Source of the DNA: Bacillota bacterium
GTDB lineage: Bacteria; Bacillota_G; Limnochordia; DTU010
Length of the DNA: 6,875 nt
NCBI GenBank assembly: GCA_012799255.1
Contig: JAAZLQ010000029.1
Location: 1-6,875 of the forward strand
Direction of reading: 5' to 3'
In this document: positions 302-6,781 of the stretch, piece by piece
Numbering within the stretch: the first letter of the stretch is position 1
Layout of the letters: each line of letters opens with the position of its first letter
Notes under the pieces: generated by a model
Databases searched by the model: none
What the model was told of the DNA's origin: nothing
What the model saw: the letters and a program-made list of their open reading frames with translations, nothing else
Translations under genes and position numbers: made by a program

Positions 302-1015
302 ATGGACAATCAAATGTTAAACCAACTATTAGCCCGCAACAAGGCTCTTGAAGAAGAAATCCATCAATTAAAGCTAAGGGAAGCCACTCTCGAAAAAATA
401 TGTAAACAGGCGATAGATGAATTAGAAAACAGTAAGAAGACTTTAGCCCGAGAATTGCATGATGAATTGGGACAGGCCATGACTTCAATTCTACTACAAT
501 TAAAAATGTTGCAAAATGAACCAGATATTGATGTAATTTATGATCGCTTAGGGGGACTGCGCTATCTTACCCAACAAACTATCGAAGATATAAGACATTT
601 AGCCATGAACCTACGGCCTACGGTATTGGAAAACCTAGGATTAATTGCTGCTTTGGAATGGTATGTCGAAGAATATAGTCGTTATTCGGGAATTACGGTG
701 GATTTAATCAGTCCTCGTATTAAAGAGCCTTTTCCCAACGAGGTAGAGACAGTTATTTATCGAGCAGTCCAAGAAAGTTTGACTAATGTTGCTCGCCATG
801 CTGAAGCTAGTCAAGTTTATATTACTCTTAAAATCATTACTAATAAGATGCATTTGCAGATCAAAGATAATGGTAAAGGAATGACGGTTGTTGATTTAAA
901 AAAAGGCCTAGGTCTCCTAGGTATGGAGGAGAGGATAAAAATGGTAAGAGGAGAATTTGAAATTATCAGCAGCTTGGGTGAAGGAACCGAAATAAATATT
1001 ACTTTACCCCTATGA
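302..1015 (+). CDS. soluble sensor histidine kinase, NarX/DegS (HisKA_3) type
   Basis: Predicted 237-residue cytoplasmic histidine kinase, the sensor partner of the NarL-type regulator that follows. Residues about 1-48 are charged and helical (likely coiled coil). The HisKA_3 box ELHDELGQ carries the phosphoacceptor His53, and the family motif LRPxxLExLGL follows at 104-114. The HATPase domain shows the N box (ESLTNVARHA, 158-167), the G1 box DNGKGM (189-194) and the G2 stretch GLGLLGMEER (202-211). ATG 302 is chosen because GAGGTG (290-295) sits six bases before it; a GTG at 293 lies within that ribosome binding site. There is no membrane segment and no PAS, GAF or HAMP domain, so the protein is much shorter than NarX and its signal input is not evident. 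A lone Cys34 lies in the N-terminal helix. The family call is firm; the signal is unknown. Confidence 0.93.
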   Translation: MDNQMLNQLLARNKALEEEIHQLKLREATLEKICKQAIDELENSKKTLARELHDELGQAMTSILLQLKMLQNEPDIDVIYDRLGGLRYLTQQTIEDIRHLAMNLRPTVLENLGLIAALEWYVEEYSRYSGITVDLISPRIKEPFPNEVETVIYRAVQESLTNVARHAEASQVYITLKIITNKMHLQIKDNGKGMTVVDLKKGLGLLGMEERIKMVRGEFEIISSLGEGTEINITLPL

Positions 1016-1057: not shown

Positions 1058-1705
1058 ATGAATCGCCCCATACGTGTCTTTTTAACTGATGATCATACCC
1101 TGCTTCGGAATGCACTCACTATGTTATTAGAAAAGCAATTCAATATCGAGGTGGTTGGAGAAGCCTCTAATGCCATTGATGCAGTTGAGGGAGTTATACA
1201 AGTTAAGCCGGATATAGTCTTGATGGATATCTCTTTACCAGATTTTGATGGTATAGAGGCTACTAAAAAGATATTAGAAAATCTACCAGACACTAAAGTG
1301 ATTGCAGTAACTATGTATATGGAGGATGTCTATTTATTAAAGTTTTTAAATGCTGGTGGACGAGGTTATGTGCATAAATCGGCCGCAGACCGGGATTTAC
1401 TTAAAGCTATAGATACAGTAATGAAGGGAGAGGTTTTCTTAAGTTCGGCTGGAGTTCAAGTAATGGCCAATCAATATGTTAAAAATGATAATTCTGGAGA
1501 AGTAATGCCGGATATTTTGTCGGAACGAGAAAGGCAAGTTCTTGAGCTTATAGCTAGAGGTTTTACCGGTAGAGAAATAGGAACTAAGCTTTGCTTATCT
1601 CCCCGCACTATAGAAACTTACCGAGAACGGATTACCATTAAGTTGAAACTAGAGCATCGTTCTGAACTAGTGGACTATGCTATTCGATATCATCTATTAA
1701 AATAA
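1058..1705 (+). CDS. NarL/FixJ-family response regulator
   Basis: Predicted 215-residue DNA-binding response regulator, almost certainly phosphorylated by the kinase just upstream. The receiver domain (about 5-120) has the acidic pair D11-D12 followed by H13, the phosphoacceptor D57 in LMDISLPDFDG, T85 and K107. The C-terminal LuxR/GerE helix-turn-helix (about 152-212) shows LSERERQVLELIARG and the recognition helix around SPRTIETYRERI. ATG 1058 has AGGGAG (1043-1048) nine bases upstream. The open frame extends back to a TTG right after the kinase stop, but that start has no ribosome binding site. The gap to the kinase is 42 bases, so the two are probably co-transcribed. Its likely targets are the palindrome and GGACA sites just downstream, before the molybdoenzyme operon. 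Function is sure at family level; the DNA targets are inferred. Confidence 0.95.
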   Translation: MNRPIRVFLTDDHTLLRNALTMLLEKQFNIEVVGEASNAIDAVEGVIQVKPDIVLMDISLPDFDGIEATKKILENLPDTKVIAVTMYMEDVYLLKFLNAGGRGYVHKSAADRDLLKAIDTVMKGEVFLSSAGVQVMANQYVKNDNSGEVMPDILSERERQVLELIARGFTGREIGTKLCLSPRTIETYRERITIKLKLEHRSELVDYAIRYHLLK

Positions 1706-1716
1706 GTGGGGGTTTT

Positions 1717-1735
1717 TACGGACATTATGTCCGTA
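1717..1735. promoter_or_regulatory. perfect 19-bp palindrome, candidate operator
   Basis: TACGGACAT-T-ATGTCCGTA is a perfect 9-bp inverted repeat around one central base, 12 bases after the regulator's stop codon. Such an odd-centred dyad is typical of a dimeric regulator's binding site, and the adjacent NarL-type protein is the obvious candidate. As RNA it could form a short hairpin, but it lacks a T-run after it, so a terminator role is less likely. A TTTACG word recurs at 1738-1743. Confidence 0.55.
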
Positions 1736-1835: not shown

Positions 1836-1854
1836 AAGGAGCTGTTTTTGGTTG
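1836..1854 (+). promoter_or_regulatory. ribosome binding site and TTG start of the fusion gene
   Basis: AAGGAG (1836-1841) stands ten bases before TTG 1852, the only start near the beginning of this long frame with a ribosome binding site. The frame is open back to TTG 1825, which has no Shine-Dalgarno sequence. Both candidates are TTG, so translation of the full-length form may be weak. Confidence 0.55.
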
Positions 1855-4773
1855 GAAAAGTACATTGAAAATCTGAAAGTTGTTGTAGCAATACCGCACC
1901 AATGGTTGAGTCAAGCTGTGGAAAGAATTTTTAATGCCACCAATGTTGATTGCATCTGTGTGAATAATATTGAGGAATTATACAAGATGATTTCAGAAGA
2001 GCAGATTGATCTGCTTATTTTGGATGTATTCTCCTACCCTCAATATTTTCGTCACATTTTTAATCACATCAAGGAACAAACCCCTGGTCTATTTATCCTG
2101 GCATTAGTATCTACTGACGAAACCTCGTATCAATATGAGCTAATGACTGCGGGTGCGTGTGCGGTGGTAGTTAAAGAAAAAGCCGACGAAGAATTGTTCC
2201 CAGCCCTAATCCAAGTTTTACGCGATAAAAATCTCAATGAATCGGTAGCAAGGCTATTGGAAAACCAAAAACAATTTATCACTCTGATTAAAGAGGAGGT
2301 AAGCGAATTGAAAAAGGAAAAAGAGAGAGGACCACTGAATCCTAGTATATCCCGTCGTACCTTTCTGAAAGCATCCGCTTTTACAGCGGTTGCCACGGGA
2401 GCTGTAGCTTCAAACCCTTGGAGCGCGGGGATGAAGGTCTTAGCCTCTGGAGATGACCTCGAAGTAGGTTCTAGTGAAGAGAAACTAATATCTAGTGCTT
2501 GTCGTTCTAACTGTTTTCAAAGCTGTCGTCTCTATGCTCATGTGCGAGATGGTAAACTGGTGAAAACTTCACCAGCACCTTGGCCTGATAGTGAATACAC
2601 AGGGAGTTGTTTGAAGGGCTTATCTTTAGTTCAACGTACTTATAGCCCGACCCGGATCAGATATCCAATGCGCCGCATAGGAGAACGTGGGGAAGATAAA
2701 TGGGAACGAATCTCTTGGGATGAAGCCATTACTGAAGTAGCGGAAAAATTCATGGAAATCCAAGAAAAATATGGACCGAAATCCCTCGTTTTTGATGTTG
2801 GTTCTGGAAATTATGGTTTAGTTCATGGATGTTTAGGAATATTTAACCGTTTAATCAACTCCATAGGTTGTACCCAATTAAATGTCTGTTACGACCAAGC
2901 TACGGGTTATGGGGCTGACAGAGTAATTGGAGGTAGTGTTTGGCTGTGGGGAAATGAACCTCGTACTATGCTAGATGCTAAAACAATTATAGTATGGGGG
3001 TCTAACCCAGTATATTCTCAACCTCAGAACTGGCGAATTGCCAAAGATGCTCAAAAGAATGGGACTAAAATTATTACCATTGATCCCATTTACTCAGCAA
3101 CAGCTAACGAATCTGACGAATATATTCCAATTGTTCCAGGTTCAGACCTTATGTTAGTTTTGGCTATGATCAATGAAATTATCGACAAAGACTTAATCGA
3201 TGTTGAATTTGTAAAGAAAAGAAGTACTGCTCCCTTCTTAGTGCGTAAGGATAATGGCATGATTCTACGTAAAAGCGATTTCAACCCAGAATTACCTGAG
3301 GAAGAAGATGATTACTATGTCTGGGATAGCATAGCTGATGGTCCGGCTCTTCTAAAGAGTGGTCCCGAAGATGTAGCTATTGAAGGAACTTATACTATTC
3401 AAGGAGTTGAGGTAGAGACCGTCTTTACCTTACTAAAAAATCATGTACAAGAATACACTCTGGAAAGAGCTAGCGAATATACCAAAATTCCAGTTGAAAA
3501 AATTCAAGAATTAATTCACATATATGTGGATGGACCTACCACAGTCTATACCAACTATGGAATTGACCACTATCAAAACGGACACCTATGGTCAATGGCG
3601 GCCTTTATGATGGCTTCCCTAACTGGCAATATTGGAGTTAAGGGAGCAGGATTTACCGGCTTATTTGTGCAAAATATACCCTTTAACTACATTGGAATGT
3701 ATGTTACTAATTTTAATATGGCAGCAACAAATACCATCCCTCAAACAGAGTTTTATAAAGTTGCTAGAGATCAGGCTATAGGGGGTACACCTTATCCAGT
3801 AAAAGCCATGTATACTACTTCATCTAATTCTATGAGCAATTGGGCTCAACAAAGTTCTTGGTTTACTGATATATTACCTAACTTAGAGTTTATTGTAGTG
3901 GCAGAAACGGAGTTAACTGATACGGCGCGCCATGCTGATATTGTTTTACCAGCATCCTTCTGGTTTGAAGTAAATGATCTTCGAACTGCTTACAATAACC
4001 CTTATATCTACATGCAGGAAAAGGCTATTGACCCTTTATATGAAAGCAAGCCGGATGCGGAGATTATTTCGTTAATTGCCCATAAGATGGGTTTAGGCGA
4101 ATATTTCCCGGAAGATATGGATGATACTGCTTGGATTAAGGTTTTATTGGATTCAGATGATTTAAGGGCAATGGGTATTACCTATGAGCGTTTAATGGAA
4201 GAAAAGGTAGTGCGAGGAACTGGTTCGGCTGAAAAACCTTTTGTTCGTGGCGAAGCATTTTTCTATACTCCAACAGGTAGAGCCCAGCTTTATTGTGAAA
4301 ATCCTCAACCACGGGTCAACTATGGTCAGGATATATCTGATATTGTTGAAAAGGAAAGATTACCATATTTTAAACCCCCAGGAGAAGCTTGGTCTGAGAA
4401 TCCCTTGTATGCCAAGTACCCCTTGGTATTCATTCAAGAACATTCTAGATACCGTACCCATAGTCAATGGTATAATGTGCCCATGCTAAGGGAGTTAGAC
4501 CCAGAACCATTAGTCAAAATTAGTCGCCAAGATGCAGAAGCACGGGGAATTAAGAGTGGAGACATAGTTGAAGTGTTCAATGACCGGGGCAAAGCTGTAC
4601 TCAAGGCTGAAGTCAATGATGCTATTTCTCCAGGAGTAATTAGTATTCCTAAAGGTTGGCAAAGAGATCAGTTTATCGAAGGGTGTTACCAAGAATTGAC
4701 TAATGCCACTTCCGATCCTATGGCTGTCAACTTTGCTTATTTTGACGCTTTAGTAGATGTAAAGAAGAGATAA
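1852..4773 (+). CDS. receiver-domain/Tat-signal molybdopterin oxidoreductase fusion, catalytic subunit
   Basis: Predicted 973-residue catalytic subunit of a complex iron-sulfur molybdoenzyme with an unusual N-terminal extension. Residues about 8-123 form a degenerate response-regulator receiver (D58, S87 and K108 kept; the acidic pair replaced by I14-P15 before H16). A helical linker (125-160) leads to a Tat motif SRRTFLK (167-173) and a hydrophobic stretch. The molybdopterin domain begins with C217-x3-C221-x3-C225-x27-C253, a [4Fe-4S] site followed by Lys255. The CYDQA segment puts Asp348 where NarG has its Asp Mo ligand (aligned from memory); Cys346 is a less likely alternative. WGSNP and IDPIYSATANESDEY are typical pterin-binding stretches. 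The dinucleotide-binding domain is at about 855-965. It shares an operon with the FeS and NrfD subunits, so it acts as a quinone-linked reductase or dehydrogenase outside the membrane. Substrate unknown. An internal start at 2308 would yield an ordinary 821-residue preprotein. Confidence 0.9.
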   Translation: MEKYIENLKVVVAIPHQWLSQAVERIFNATNVDCICVNNIEELYKMISEEQIDLLILDVFSYPQYFRHIFNHIKEQTPGLFILALVSTDETSYQYELMTAGACAVVVKEKADEELFPALIQVLRDKNLNESVARLLENQKQFITLIKEEVSELKKEKERGPLNPSISRRTFLKASAFTAVATGAVASNPWSAGMKVLASGDDLEVGSSEEKLISSACRSNCFQSCRLYAHVRDGKLVKTSPAPWPDSEYTGSCLKGLSLVQRTYSPTRIRYPMRRIGERGEDKWERISWDEAITEVAEKFMEIQEKYGPKSLVFDVGSGNYGLVHGCLGIFNRLINSIGCTQLNVCYDQATGYGADRVIGGSVWLWGNEPRTMLDAKTIIVWGSNPVYSQPQNWRIAKDAQKNGTKIITIDPIYSATANESDEYIPIVPGSDLMLVLAMINEIIDKDLIDVEFVKKRSTAPFLVRKDNGMILRKSDFNPELPEEEDDYYVWDSIADGPALLKSGPEDVAIEGTYTIQGVEVETVFTLLKNHVQEYTLERASEYTKIPVEKIQELIHIYVDGPTTVYTNYGIDHYQNGHLWSMAAFMMASLTGNIGVKGAGFTGLFVQNIPFNYIGMYVTNFNMAATNTIPQTEFYKVARDQAIGGTPYPVKAMYTTSSNSMSNWAQQSSWFTDILPNLEFIVVAETELTDTARHADIVLPASFWFEVNDLRTAYNNPYIYMQEKAIDPLYESKPDAEIISLIAHKMGLGEYFPEDMDDTAWIKVLLDSDDLRAMGITYERLMEEKVVRGTGSAEKPFVRGEAFFYTPTGRAQLYCENPQPRVNYGQDISDIVEKERLPYFKPPGEAWSENPLYAKYPLVFIQEHSRYRTHSQWYNVPMLRELDPEPLVKISRQDAEARGIKSGDIVEVFNDRGKAVLKAEVNDAISPGVISIPKGWQRDQFIEGCYQELTNATSDPMAVNFAYFDALVDVKKR
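2294..2310 (+). promoter_or_regulatory. internal Shine-Dalgarno and in-frame TTG: second translation start
   Basis: AGGAGGT (2294-2300), a full match to the anti-Shine-Dalgarno sequence, is followed after seven bases by TTG 2308, in frame with the long catalytic gene. Starting here gives MKKEKERG and then the Tat motif after about 14 residues: the normal layout of a Tat leader, with 821 residues in total, a usual size for this enzyme family. This site is stronger than the one at 1836. In the +1 frame a TAA overlaps it at 2300-2302, as if a separate upstream gene once ended here. A start is inferred, not proven; the linker also encodes a plausible helix. Confidence 0.6.
2308..2445 (+). other. 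twin-arginine (Tat) signal sequence
   Basis: Counted from the internal TTG, the leader has a charged n-region (KKEKER), the motif S-R-R-T-F-L-K and a weakly hydrophobic stretch rich in Ala, Thr and Val. Possible cleavage sites are AVA|S (after residue 186 of the long form) or VLA|S (after 198). It marks the enzyme for folded export with its cofactor. In the full-length fusion the same signal lies internally, behind about 165 residues. Confidence 0.85.
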
Positions 4774-4788
4774 AGGGGGTATTAAAAT

Positions 4789-5406
4789 ATGCGTTATGCA
4801 ATGGCGATTGATCTGGATCGCTGTGTAGGGTGCCATGCGTGCTCAGTGGCATGCAAGGTTGAAAACAATCTCCCTAATGAAATATGGTGGAGCAGAATCT
4901 TGACTGTGGGTGGGAAAAGCATGGATACACCGGAAGGAACCTTCCCCAATTTGCGCATGCAATTCCTACCGATAAATTGCCAACACTGCGAGAATGCACC
5001 TTGCGTCAAAGCTTGCCCTGTAGGTGCAACCTATAAAAGAGAAGATGGTATTGTAGTACAAGATTACGATAAGTGTATTGGTTGCCGTTACTGTATGGTA
5101 GCATGTCCTTATTCTGGAGTACGTCAATTTAACTGGAAAAAACCAGAATATGCCATAGAGGTGGCTATGGGTGATGCCAAAGTCAAACCCCATCAAAGTA
5201 ATGTAGTAGAAAAATGTACTTTTTGTAGCCATCTTTTAGCAGAAGACAAGAAACCGGCTTGTATCGATGCTTGTCCTAACCGAGCTCGAATATTTGGCGA
5301 TATTGATGACCCTAATAGTGATGTAAGTAAGGCCATCAAGGGTCGCAAACATATTCATTTGCTCGAAGAAAAAGGAACTAAGCCCAGCATATACTACTTA
5401 ACTTAA
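4789..5406 (+). CDS. DmsB/PsrB-type four-cluster ferredoxin subunit
   Basis: Predicted 205-residue electron-transfer subunit that carries electrons between the membrane anchor and the Mo site. Four cysteine groups are complete: C12-15-18-22, C64-67-72-76, C96-99-102-106, and C143-146-158-162 with a longer gap. Pairing as in DmsB and PsrB would bind four [4Fe-4S] clusters. All sixteen ligands are Cys, so no Trp-substituted [3Fe-4S] site as in NarH is expected. There is no signal peptide; such subunits usually leave the cell bound to the Tat-bearing catalytic partner, here encoded 15 bases upstream. The start ATG has AAAGGGGGT eight bases before it. Length is normal for the family. The family name alone does not settle the substrate. 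Confidence 0.95.
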   Translation: MRYAMAIDLDRCVGCHACSVACKVENNLPNEIWWSRILTVGGKSMDTPEGTFPNLRMQFLPINCQHCENAPCVKACPVGATYKREDGIVVQDYDKCIGCRYCMVACPYSGVRQFNWKKPEYAIEVAMGDAKVKPHQSNVVEKCTFCSHLLAEDKKPACIDACPNRARIFGDIDDPNSDVSKAIKGRKHIHLLEEKGTKPSIYYLT

Positions 5407-5419
5407 AGGAGGTGTAAGT

Positions 5420-6568
5420 ATGACTGATTTAACTAACACAAAAAAATCAAATTCCAATAACATGTGGAATATTATATTAGCTGCCTTGGTTATCCTTGGT
5501 GCCATCTGTTGGGGATTTCAATTAACAAAAGGTTTACAAGTTACGAATTTGGGCACTAGCAATATGTGGGGACTTTATATCACTGGCTTTATGATTTTTA
5601 CTGGAATTGCTGCTGGCAGTTTATTTTTTGCTTCGGTACCATATTTGTTTAACTTCAATGAGTATAAACCTTATAGCAGAATTACCGCTTTTACAGGAGC
5701 AGTATCAGTCTTAGTGGCTGGCTTATTCATTCTCGTAGATATAGGATCTCCTTGGAAAGCTTGGCTTTACATTATCAGTGGTAATTTTGGTTCTCCTATG
5801 TTTTGGGACTTCATCATACTAACCTCTTACTTGATAATATCTATTATATTTACTTCCCAGCTTTTGAAAGTGCAGGGGGGAGAAAAAGATGAAAGTTCTA
5901 TTAAAACTATAGCCATAGTTGCCTTTATTGCTGGTCTTTTAGTTGTAGTAACTTCATTTGTTTTTAGTATGCAAGTAGCACGTCCTATGTGGAATAATCC
6001 AGCCCAATCAATATCCTTTTTAGTCGCAGCATTAGTTGCCGCACTAGCCATACAAATGATCATAGTCTCTATTCTCAATAGGATTGGTTACACTAAAATG
6101 TCCCCAGACCTGTTTGCGAAAATAGCTAAAGTCACTGCCGTCCTTTTGGTTGTACAATTAATTATCGTGGTAGGAGAAGTGCTGATAGGTCTATATCCTG
6201 GTGCTGGCGGTGGATATGATGCTACCCTATGGTTAGTAGCAGGTAAAGGAGCTATAGGCTTCTGGGTAGAGATGGTAGCATTGATAGCAGCTATAGTAAT
6301 ATTAGTTAAGGCAAGTGGTTCCTCAGAGGATGGAAAGATTGTTCTAGGAGCAATATTAGCCCTGGTGGCCATCTATTTCATTAAATCTAACTTTCTTCAA
6401 GCCGAGTTTCTTAACACCTTGATCAATATGCCAGGACCACAGATGTTCGGCGATGCTGCCGGAAGATATATCCCATCCCTAGCTGAAATAGGCCTATCCT
6501 TAGGTATCGTTTCTCTGGGAGCTTTGATAATTAATCTAGGCTTAAACAGATTAAATCTAGGTGAGTAA
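5420..6568 (+). CDS. NrfD/PsrC-family membrane anchor, quinone-interacting subunit
   Basis: Predicted 382-residue integral membrane protein that anchors the complex and exchanges electrons with menaquinone. About ten hydrophobic helices are visible, near residues 16-35, 50-75, 86-108, 125-148, 162-184, 198-220, 236-258, 272-295, 303-324 and 354-376. The NrfD-family hallmarks are WGLYITGFMIFTGIAAGS (50-67) and the D107-I-G-S-P turn after helix 3. No paired His ligands for heme b in the style of NarI stand out, which fits a heme-free NrfD/PsrC anchor. ATG 5420 follows a very strong AAAGGAGGTG (5405-5414) that overlaps the stop of the FeS gene, so coupling is tight. A terminator follows directly, making this the last gene of the operon. 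Whether it also moves protons cannot be told. Confidence 0.93.
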   Translation: MTDLTNTKKSNSNNMWNIILAALVILGAICWGFQLTKGLQVTNLGTSNMWGLYITGFMIFTGIAAGSLFFASVPYLFNFNEYKPYSRITAFTGAVSVLVAGLFILVDIGSPWKAWLYIISGNFGSPMFWDFIILTSYLIISIIFTSQLLKVQGGEKDESSIKTIAIVAFIAGLLVVVTSFVFSMQVARPMWNNPAQSISFLVAALVAALAIQMIIVSILNRIGYTKMSPDLFAKIAKVTAVLLVVQLIIVVGEVLIGLYPGAGGGYDATLWLVAGKGAIGFWVEMVALIAAIVILVKASGSSEDGKIVLGAILALVAIYFIKSNFLQAEFLNTLINMPGPQMFGDAAGRYIPSLAEIGLSLGIVSLGALIINLGLNRLNLGE

Positions 6569-6702: not shown

Positions 6703-6781
6703 TCAGCTTTTGGACAGATTACACCGTCCATCGCTGGACATTATGAGGTGTTAAAGCCAACCTAACCCGTCCAAAAGCTGA
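6703..6781. repeat. perfect 13-bp inverted repeat enclosing further stems (structured element or operator array)
   Basis: TCAGCTTTTGGAC (6703-6715) and GTCCAAAAGCTGA (6769-6781) are perfect inverted copies 53 bases apart. Inside, ACACC-GTCCA (6721-6730) pairs with TGGAC and GGTGT (6735-6739, 6747-6751) around the loop TCGC, leaving a 7-base bulge. GGAC or GTCC occurs four times in alternating orientation, so several pairings compete. No T-run follows on either strand, so it is not a simple terminator. It lies just before the promoter at 6787. It could be a small RNA fold, a cruciform-type operator cluster or a relic of a small mobile element. Confidence 0.45.

Follow-up and report, generated by a model that had tools for sequence, protein, structure and literature searches.

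A conserved internal start codon at the junction of an atypical receiver domain and a Tat molybdoenzyme in a probable two-product gene

An open reading frame of 973 codons (1852–4773) in the window, by which we mean the whole 6,875-nucleotide stretch of DNA analysed, encodes in order a receiver-like domain, a lysine- and glutamate-rich linker, a twin-arginine signal, and an enzyme of the DMSO reductase family. Because an internal start is conserved in this frame and the receiver domain has the marks of purifying selection, we conclude that this gene, from an anaerobe, very probably yields two proteins, an 821-residue Tat substrate and a 973-residue receiver-tagged form, and is a conserved two-start gene. 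A preliminary description of the window had proposed that an exportable short form and a receiver-tagged long form are both made, and this proposal gains support from conservation of the start despite synonymous saturation, from selection on the receiver, and from a Tat motif invariant across 37 of 37 sequences.

In the scheme that we propose, ribosomes initiating at TTG 1852 would produce the 973-residue protein with the atypical receiver ahead of the Tat signal, and ribosomes initiating at the stronger TTG 2308 would produce the 821-residue protein, in which the Tat signal is N-terminal as in unfused relatives. The short form would be exported and would act together with its 4Fe-4S and NrfD partners; the long form would probably be retained, or exported slowly or poorly, since its twin arginines come only after about 165 residues.

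The locus and its internal start

The features of the locus are collected in the table. The kinase frame opens with a GTG at 293, and the ATG at 302 is our choice of start. The palindrome between the regulator and the fused gene, possibly an operator bound by the regulator, has a counterpart in a 7-bp dyad at L123, a partial or decayed one at L057, and decayed ones at L058–L060; as such it is absent from the remaining fused loci compared. We note by eye that GGACATTATG at 6730–6750, in the seemingly non-coding 3′ flank, has ten bases in common with it.

Table. Features of the window
Feature	Coordinates	Strand	Basis
Soluble histidine kinase, HisKA_3 and HATPase_c	302..1015	+	Pfam; upstream neighbour of fused genes
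NarL/LuxR-type response regulator	1058..1705	+	Pfam; neighbour comparison
Perfect palindrome TACGGACATTATGTCCGTA in the regulator/fused gene interval, candidate operator	1717..1735	+	
Long-form (first) ribosome site: AAGGAG, ten bases, TTG 1852	1836..1854	+	
Atypical receiver domain (pREC); phospho-acceptor Asp58 present, acidic pair absent	1852..2307	+	
Internal start: AGGAGGT, seven bases, TTG	2294..2310	+	
Short form, 821 aa: Tat signal and DMSO-reductase-family molybdoenzyme	2308..4773	+	
4Fe-4S electron-transfer subunit	4789..5406	+	Pfam/NCBIfam
NrfD-type membrane subunit	5420..6568	+	Pfam/NCBIfam

The internal site lies exactly at the junction of the receiver-fold domain and the Tat molybdoenzyme, where AGGAGGT (2294–2300) and the spacer AAGCGAA precede a TTG (2308–2310) in the same frame as the first TTG. 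The preliminary description had both sites right in coordinates, spacing, and product lengths, including the AAGGAG ahead of the first start (1836–1841 in our numbering), and it was also right in calling the internal site the stronger: in duplexes with what we take to be the 16S tail, the internal site has an energy of −13.3 kcal/mol versus −8.4 for the first start. By this measure it ranks best of the 48 in-frame ATG, GTG, and TTG codons of the frame, and it recurs in 0.21% of 20,000 synonymous-codon shuffles with the amino acids fixed.

Conservation of the internal start

A search for homologues gave 861 above threshold, of which 120 were listed, and 36 of these 120 have the fused architecture, with lengths of 903–1005 residues, the N-domain in common, and identities from 99% to 42% (P0001, the 99% match, could come from the window's own contig or from a close relative; the source flags P0090 and P0091 as partial). 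One of the 36, P0006, is 81% identical, comes from a cultured relative, and carries the source name Desulfitobacterium dichloroeliminans. Together with the window the 36 show at the internal start column a leucine in 22, a methionine in 14, and a valine in one of 37; a second alignment gives 22, 13, and one, with an aspartate in P0084, where a gap is placed differently. Most of the 36 are represented by protein sequence only, and DNA was at hand for 13 fused frames, namely the window and 12 further ones in 11 genomes; contig ends truncate two of them, L122 and L123. The sets of genomes searched (45, 73, 398, 3, and 82) overlap. In each frame we took as the internal site the best start-like codon at most 40 codons before the twin arginines, a rule that favours strong sites but was the same for every frame (MAFFT had placed the site of the second L053 frame out of register).

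Comparison of homologues had been suggested in the preliminary description as a check on the internal site, and it bears the site out: the codon is start-like in all 13 frames (TTG in six, ATG in five, GTG in two), and a strong Shine-Dalgarno sequence of −11.8 to −13.3 kcal/mol is present in 10 of the 13. TTG is a weak start codon, and it is frequent at these starts. In the three others, L058–L060, which form one close group, the internal site has an energy of −8.8 and the first start is about equal at −9.0, and the site is one of the best two in-frame start-like codons. Among the 17–75 such codons per frame the internal site ranks first in eight frames, and in L119 and L120 it is tied with an adjacent TTG. 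It is also stronger than the best candidate for the first start in eight frames (the window, L057, L123, L121, the first of L053, L119, L120, and L054), in a comparison that omits the second L053 frame, whose first start is ambiguous, and L122, which is cut by its contig end.

This conservation goes beyond what the protein forces. The codons of the Shine-Dalgarno sequence encode KEEV, KGEV, KKEV, EEEV, or QGEV, yet spell GGAGGT, and GAG accounts for 22–41% of glutamate codons in the fused genes. Near saturation, synonymous divergence between the window and L057 reaches a pS of 0.87 in the receiver, 0.82 in the catalytic part, and 0.67 in the linker and Tat signal. When the protein is held fixed and codons are drawn from the same gene, a start codon with an equally strong Shine-Dalgarno sequence recurs in 0.2–5.7% of 20,000 synonymous shuffles per frame (P 0.002–0.057 in ten of the 13 frames, leaving aside the near-duplicates L059, L060, and L120); the product of the ten values, 3e-20, is a guide and not a probability, because the loci share ancestry and each site was picked as the best in the neighbourhood of the Tat motif. 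As a background, 39 of 7421 in-frame ATG, GTG, and TTG codons reach −11.8 kcal/mol when they lie 90 or more codons inside a stop-to-stop frame, in 339 frames of at least 300 residues from the fetched loci; 21 of these 39 belong to the fused loci, some of them counted twice under different locus ids; of the other 18, most come from Eggerthellaceae loci rich in GC, and a few (L111 and L116) resemble true gene starts. The RNA at the internal site is less structured than the mean of its frame in all 13, and this lends weak support to use of the start; in a GC-matched comparison a fraction of 0.00–0.59 of codons are less structured than the site, which is thus not clearly unstructured.

Internal Shine-Dalgarno sequences have been proposed to slow ribosomes, and the site could thus be a pause in the translation of a single long form that aids folding of the receiver or handling of the Tat signal. 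A pause has no need of a start codon, however, yet an ATG, GTG, or TTG is present in 13 of 13 frames, whether the residue is leucine, valine, or methionine, even though TTG makes up merely 12–32% of leucine and GTG 10–32% of valine codons in the fused genes; we consider this explanation improbable.

Receiver domain, Tat signal, and origin of the fusion

Several comparisons identify the N-domain as a receiver. The AlphaFold2 model has the receiver fold at a mean pLDDT of 85.3, its best Foldseek matches in the PDB are receiver domains or proteins that contain them (best E 1.1e-5), and the best PDB sequence matches of the N-domain profile are response regulators. Against the Pfam gathering score of 30.2 bits for PF00072, the N-terminal part alone comes just short at 29.8 and the whole protein scores 24.1. 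At the positions of the phosphorylation site, all 37 rows (the window and the 36 listed fused homologues) have Asp58, a serine occupies the Thr/Ser position in 31, and the lysine is present in 29. In the same 37 rows the Mg2+-binding acidic pair at the end of strand 1 is missing, its columns holding isoleucine or valine followed mostly by proline, then mostly by histidine or asparagine, and because of this loss we call the domain an atypical receiver.

The dN/dS of the receiver, 0.13–0.40 in each of five close comparisons (the two distant ones are saturated), indicates that it is under purifying selection, with a more constrained catalytic part (0.02–0.29) and a faster-evolving receiver. The leader of the first start, AAGGAG(C/T)TGTTTT, is readable in the window, L057, L058–L060, L123, L121, L119, and L120, and is not readable in L054 or in either L053 frame; these patterns indicate that the long form is under selection as well. 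They bear on the possibility that only the short form does the work while the receiver is translated as a leader that sets expression, with no role as a protein, as might be supposed from the greater strength of the internal site in eight comparable frames. An invariant Asp58, purifying selection, a preserved receiver fold, and the co-divergence of the receiver with the kinase and regulator described below all speak against such a leader, which we regard as very improbable.

The enzyme half carries the Molybdopterin, Molydop_binding, and Fe4S4 domains of Pfam and is thus a molybdoenzyme of the DMSO reductase family. No specific enzyme or substrate is assigned: among the best 25 of 27 NCBIfam families the score stays below every curated cut-off for a named enzyme (the best is 361 bits versus a cut-off of 778), and the PDB matches of this half are broad. 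The Tat motif keeps its two arginines, its phenylalanine, and its leucine in all 37 rows, although the twin arginines lie about 165 residues into the long form and are near the N-terminus in the short form only. In 18 unfused proteins that are 65–76% identical (P0015 and P0019–P0035) the start lies 9–14 residues before the S/TRR motif, and the internal TTG of the window lies 14 residues ahead of it. That the motif has been retained so far into the long form is easiest to understand if there is also a short form.

An invariant Tat motif would also be expected if both forms are made and the long form, too, is a Tat substrate, whose cleavage would leave the receiver anchored at the membrane on the cytoplasmic side as a signal of completed export. 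This is a variant of the two-product explanation and overlaps it. In the full-length model pLDDT stays below 50 for residues 141–207, the stretch with the internal start and the signal, so that linker and signal are predicted to be flexible, in keeping with such export; the 165 or so residues ahead of the twin arginines weigh against it, and we think it unlikely, though the least so of the alternatives to a poorly exported long form.

The preliminary description had offered as an alternative that two genes were joined recently or by a sequencing indel, pointing to a TAA in the +1 frame (2300–2302) that overlaps the internal Shine-Dalgarno sequence. The TAA is indeed present in the window, but it is not conserved among the fused loci and is ruled out as a relic stop codon: there is no +1 stop where the sequence is GTT-AAC (L067/L122) or GTC-AAG (L054), and GTA-GCC (L053) gives a TAG. 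The comparison of one frame versus two that had been proposed finds one frame in the 36 of 120 listed homologues, and the further 12 fused frames in 11 genomes agree; because the fusion is common to so many, an indel or recent join is to all intents excluded. A separate gene for the N-domain was not found either. With the N-domain of the long protein as query, 13 of 13 matches are of fused length, and none of 26 candidates is a short stand-alone N-domain protein, so that these searches gave no stand-alone receiver gene as a candidate ancestor; matches weaker than E 1e-15, viewed as a group, are mostly frames of 200–310 residues, the size of regulators, with some longer. Among viral contigs, 30 stretches matched a pattern and none is a relative.

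Kinase and regulator linkage and relation to known systems

In 12 of 12 loci that could be scored, a kinase and a regulator lie directly upstream of the fused gene (L122, cut by its contig end, was not scored), and no kinase or regulator match at E 1e-4 is present in about 2.5–6 kb of fetched upstream DNA at any of 17 unfused enzyme genes from 13 loci (11 of them mostly from Eggerthellaceae, plus L055 and L056). L028–L033, excluded from this count, have no such match in 1.5 kb upstream. In eight representative loci (eight of the 13 frames, without L059, L060, L120, L122, and L123), pairwise identity of the receiver correlates with that of the regulator at 0.96, the kinase at 0.89, its own enzyme half at 0.71, the 4Fe-4S subunit at 0.46, and NrfD, truncated in L054 and in the second L053 set, at −0.05 (Mantel p 0.0004, 0.0006, 0.006, 0.015, and 0.59, respectively).

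Receiver and enzyme identities are discordant in several comparisons. For example, L121 and L119 are 71% identical in the kinase, 68% in the regulator, and 48% in the receiver, but 37% in the enzyme, while L121 and the window are 73% identical in the enzyme and 34% in the receiver; likewise, N-domain and catalytic identities are 25% and 83% between P0012 and P0006, and 72% and 45% between P0008 and P0090. These discordances indicate that the kinase-regulator-receiver set has recombined with different enzymes, with the joint near the internal start and Tat signal. The exchange of receiver and catalytic halves involves L121 and L119 and the proteins P0012, P0006, P0008, P0053, and P0090, of which P0012 and P0053, on contigs of equal length (80205), may be neighbours. 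We also note that in L053 two sets of kinase, regulator, fused enzyme, FeS, and NrfD genes adjoin in one genome, with strongly diverged receivers.

The long form of the enzyme may have a part in signalling. The receiver of the long form would dock on the kinase or the regulator, and the cytoplasmic long enzyme would report maturation, substrate, or export and thereby tune the operon; from its linkage and co-divergence we infer that the long form is a cytoplasmic partner of the two-component system, and we suggest only tentatively that the tagged enzyme feeds into kinase and regulator control. By a Pfam scan of kinases (all but those of L059, L060, and L120), no sensor domain was found in the window, L057, L123, or the second L053 set; GAF matches are present in L058, the first L053 set, and L054, with weak ones in L121, and the L119 kinase has no GAF match in its long N-terminal part. 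Because several of the kinases carry GAF-like domains, a signal borne by the enzyme is not needed in all of these systems. In a fuller version of the proposal, about which we are equally hesitant, the respiratory enzyme acts as its own sensor: the tagged form would dock on a sensorless kinase, report cofactor loading, substrate, or a backlog of export, and set the level of its own operon, and the kinase-regulator-receiver module would have moved among molybdoenzymes, the joint retaining its internal start. If this is true, the choice of start codon decides between an exposed export signal and a signalling domain on the enzyme, and a sensorless kinase could couple directly to the enzyme that it controls. 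The short product would also be overlooked in gene calling, because the fused homologues among the matches listed appear only at 903–1005 residues.

Genes with in-frame internal starts include those of CheA, IF2, and McrB. In the titles and abstract openings of the open-licence literature we found no description of a receiver-fused Tat molybdoenzyme with an internal start. In-frame internal starts giving N-terminal proteoforms are established for ClpB, SsaQ, PagC, and others, according to the part of PMC11005335 available to us, and there as here two proteins come from one frame through a second ribosome site and may differ in location; in the localisation cases of that part it is the longer form that holds the targeting signal, whereas here the longer form would bury the signal behind a signalling domain. 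In what is accessible of the accounts of FrzS (PMC1974792) and ShkA (PMC7010744), the receiver fold likewise lacks part of the canonical phosphorylation site, but FrzS is without the aspartate (PMC1974792), which is invariant here while the acidic pair is lost, and the output attached to the receiver here, unlike in those proteins, is a respiratory enzyme.

The enzyme itself shares with the complex iron-sulfur molybdoenzymes of the DMSO reductase family (DmsA/YnfE, PhsA, and ArrA) the Mo-bisPGD domains, the Tat signal, and the 4Fe-4S and NrfD partners, but differs in its N-terminal receiver domain and in reaching none of the curated NCBIfam cut-offs. Like NarXL-like pairs, the locus places a HisKA_3 kinase and a NarL-type regulator beside a respiratory operon; unlike them, its kinase is soluble, with no sensor domain found, and its enzyme carries a third receiver as a fusion.
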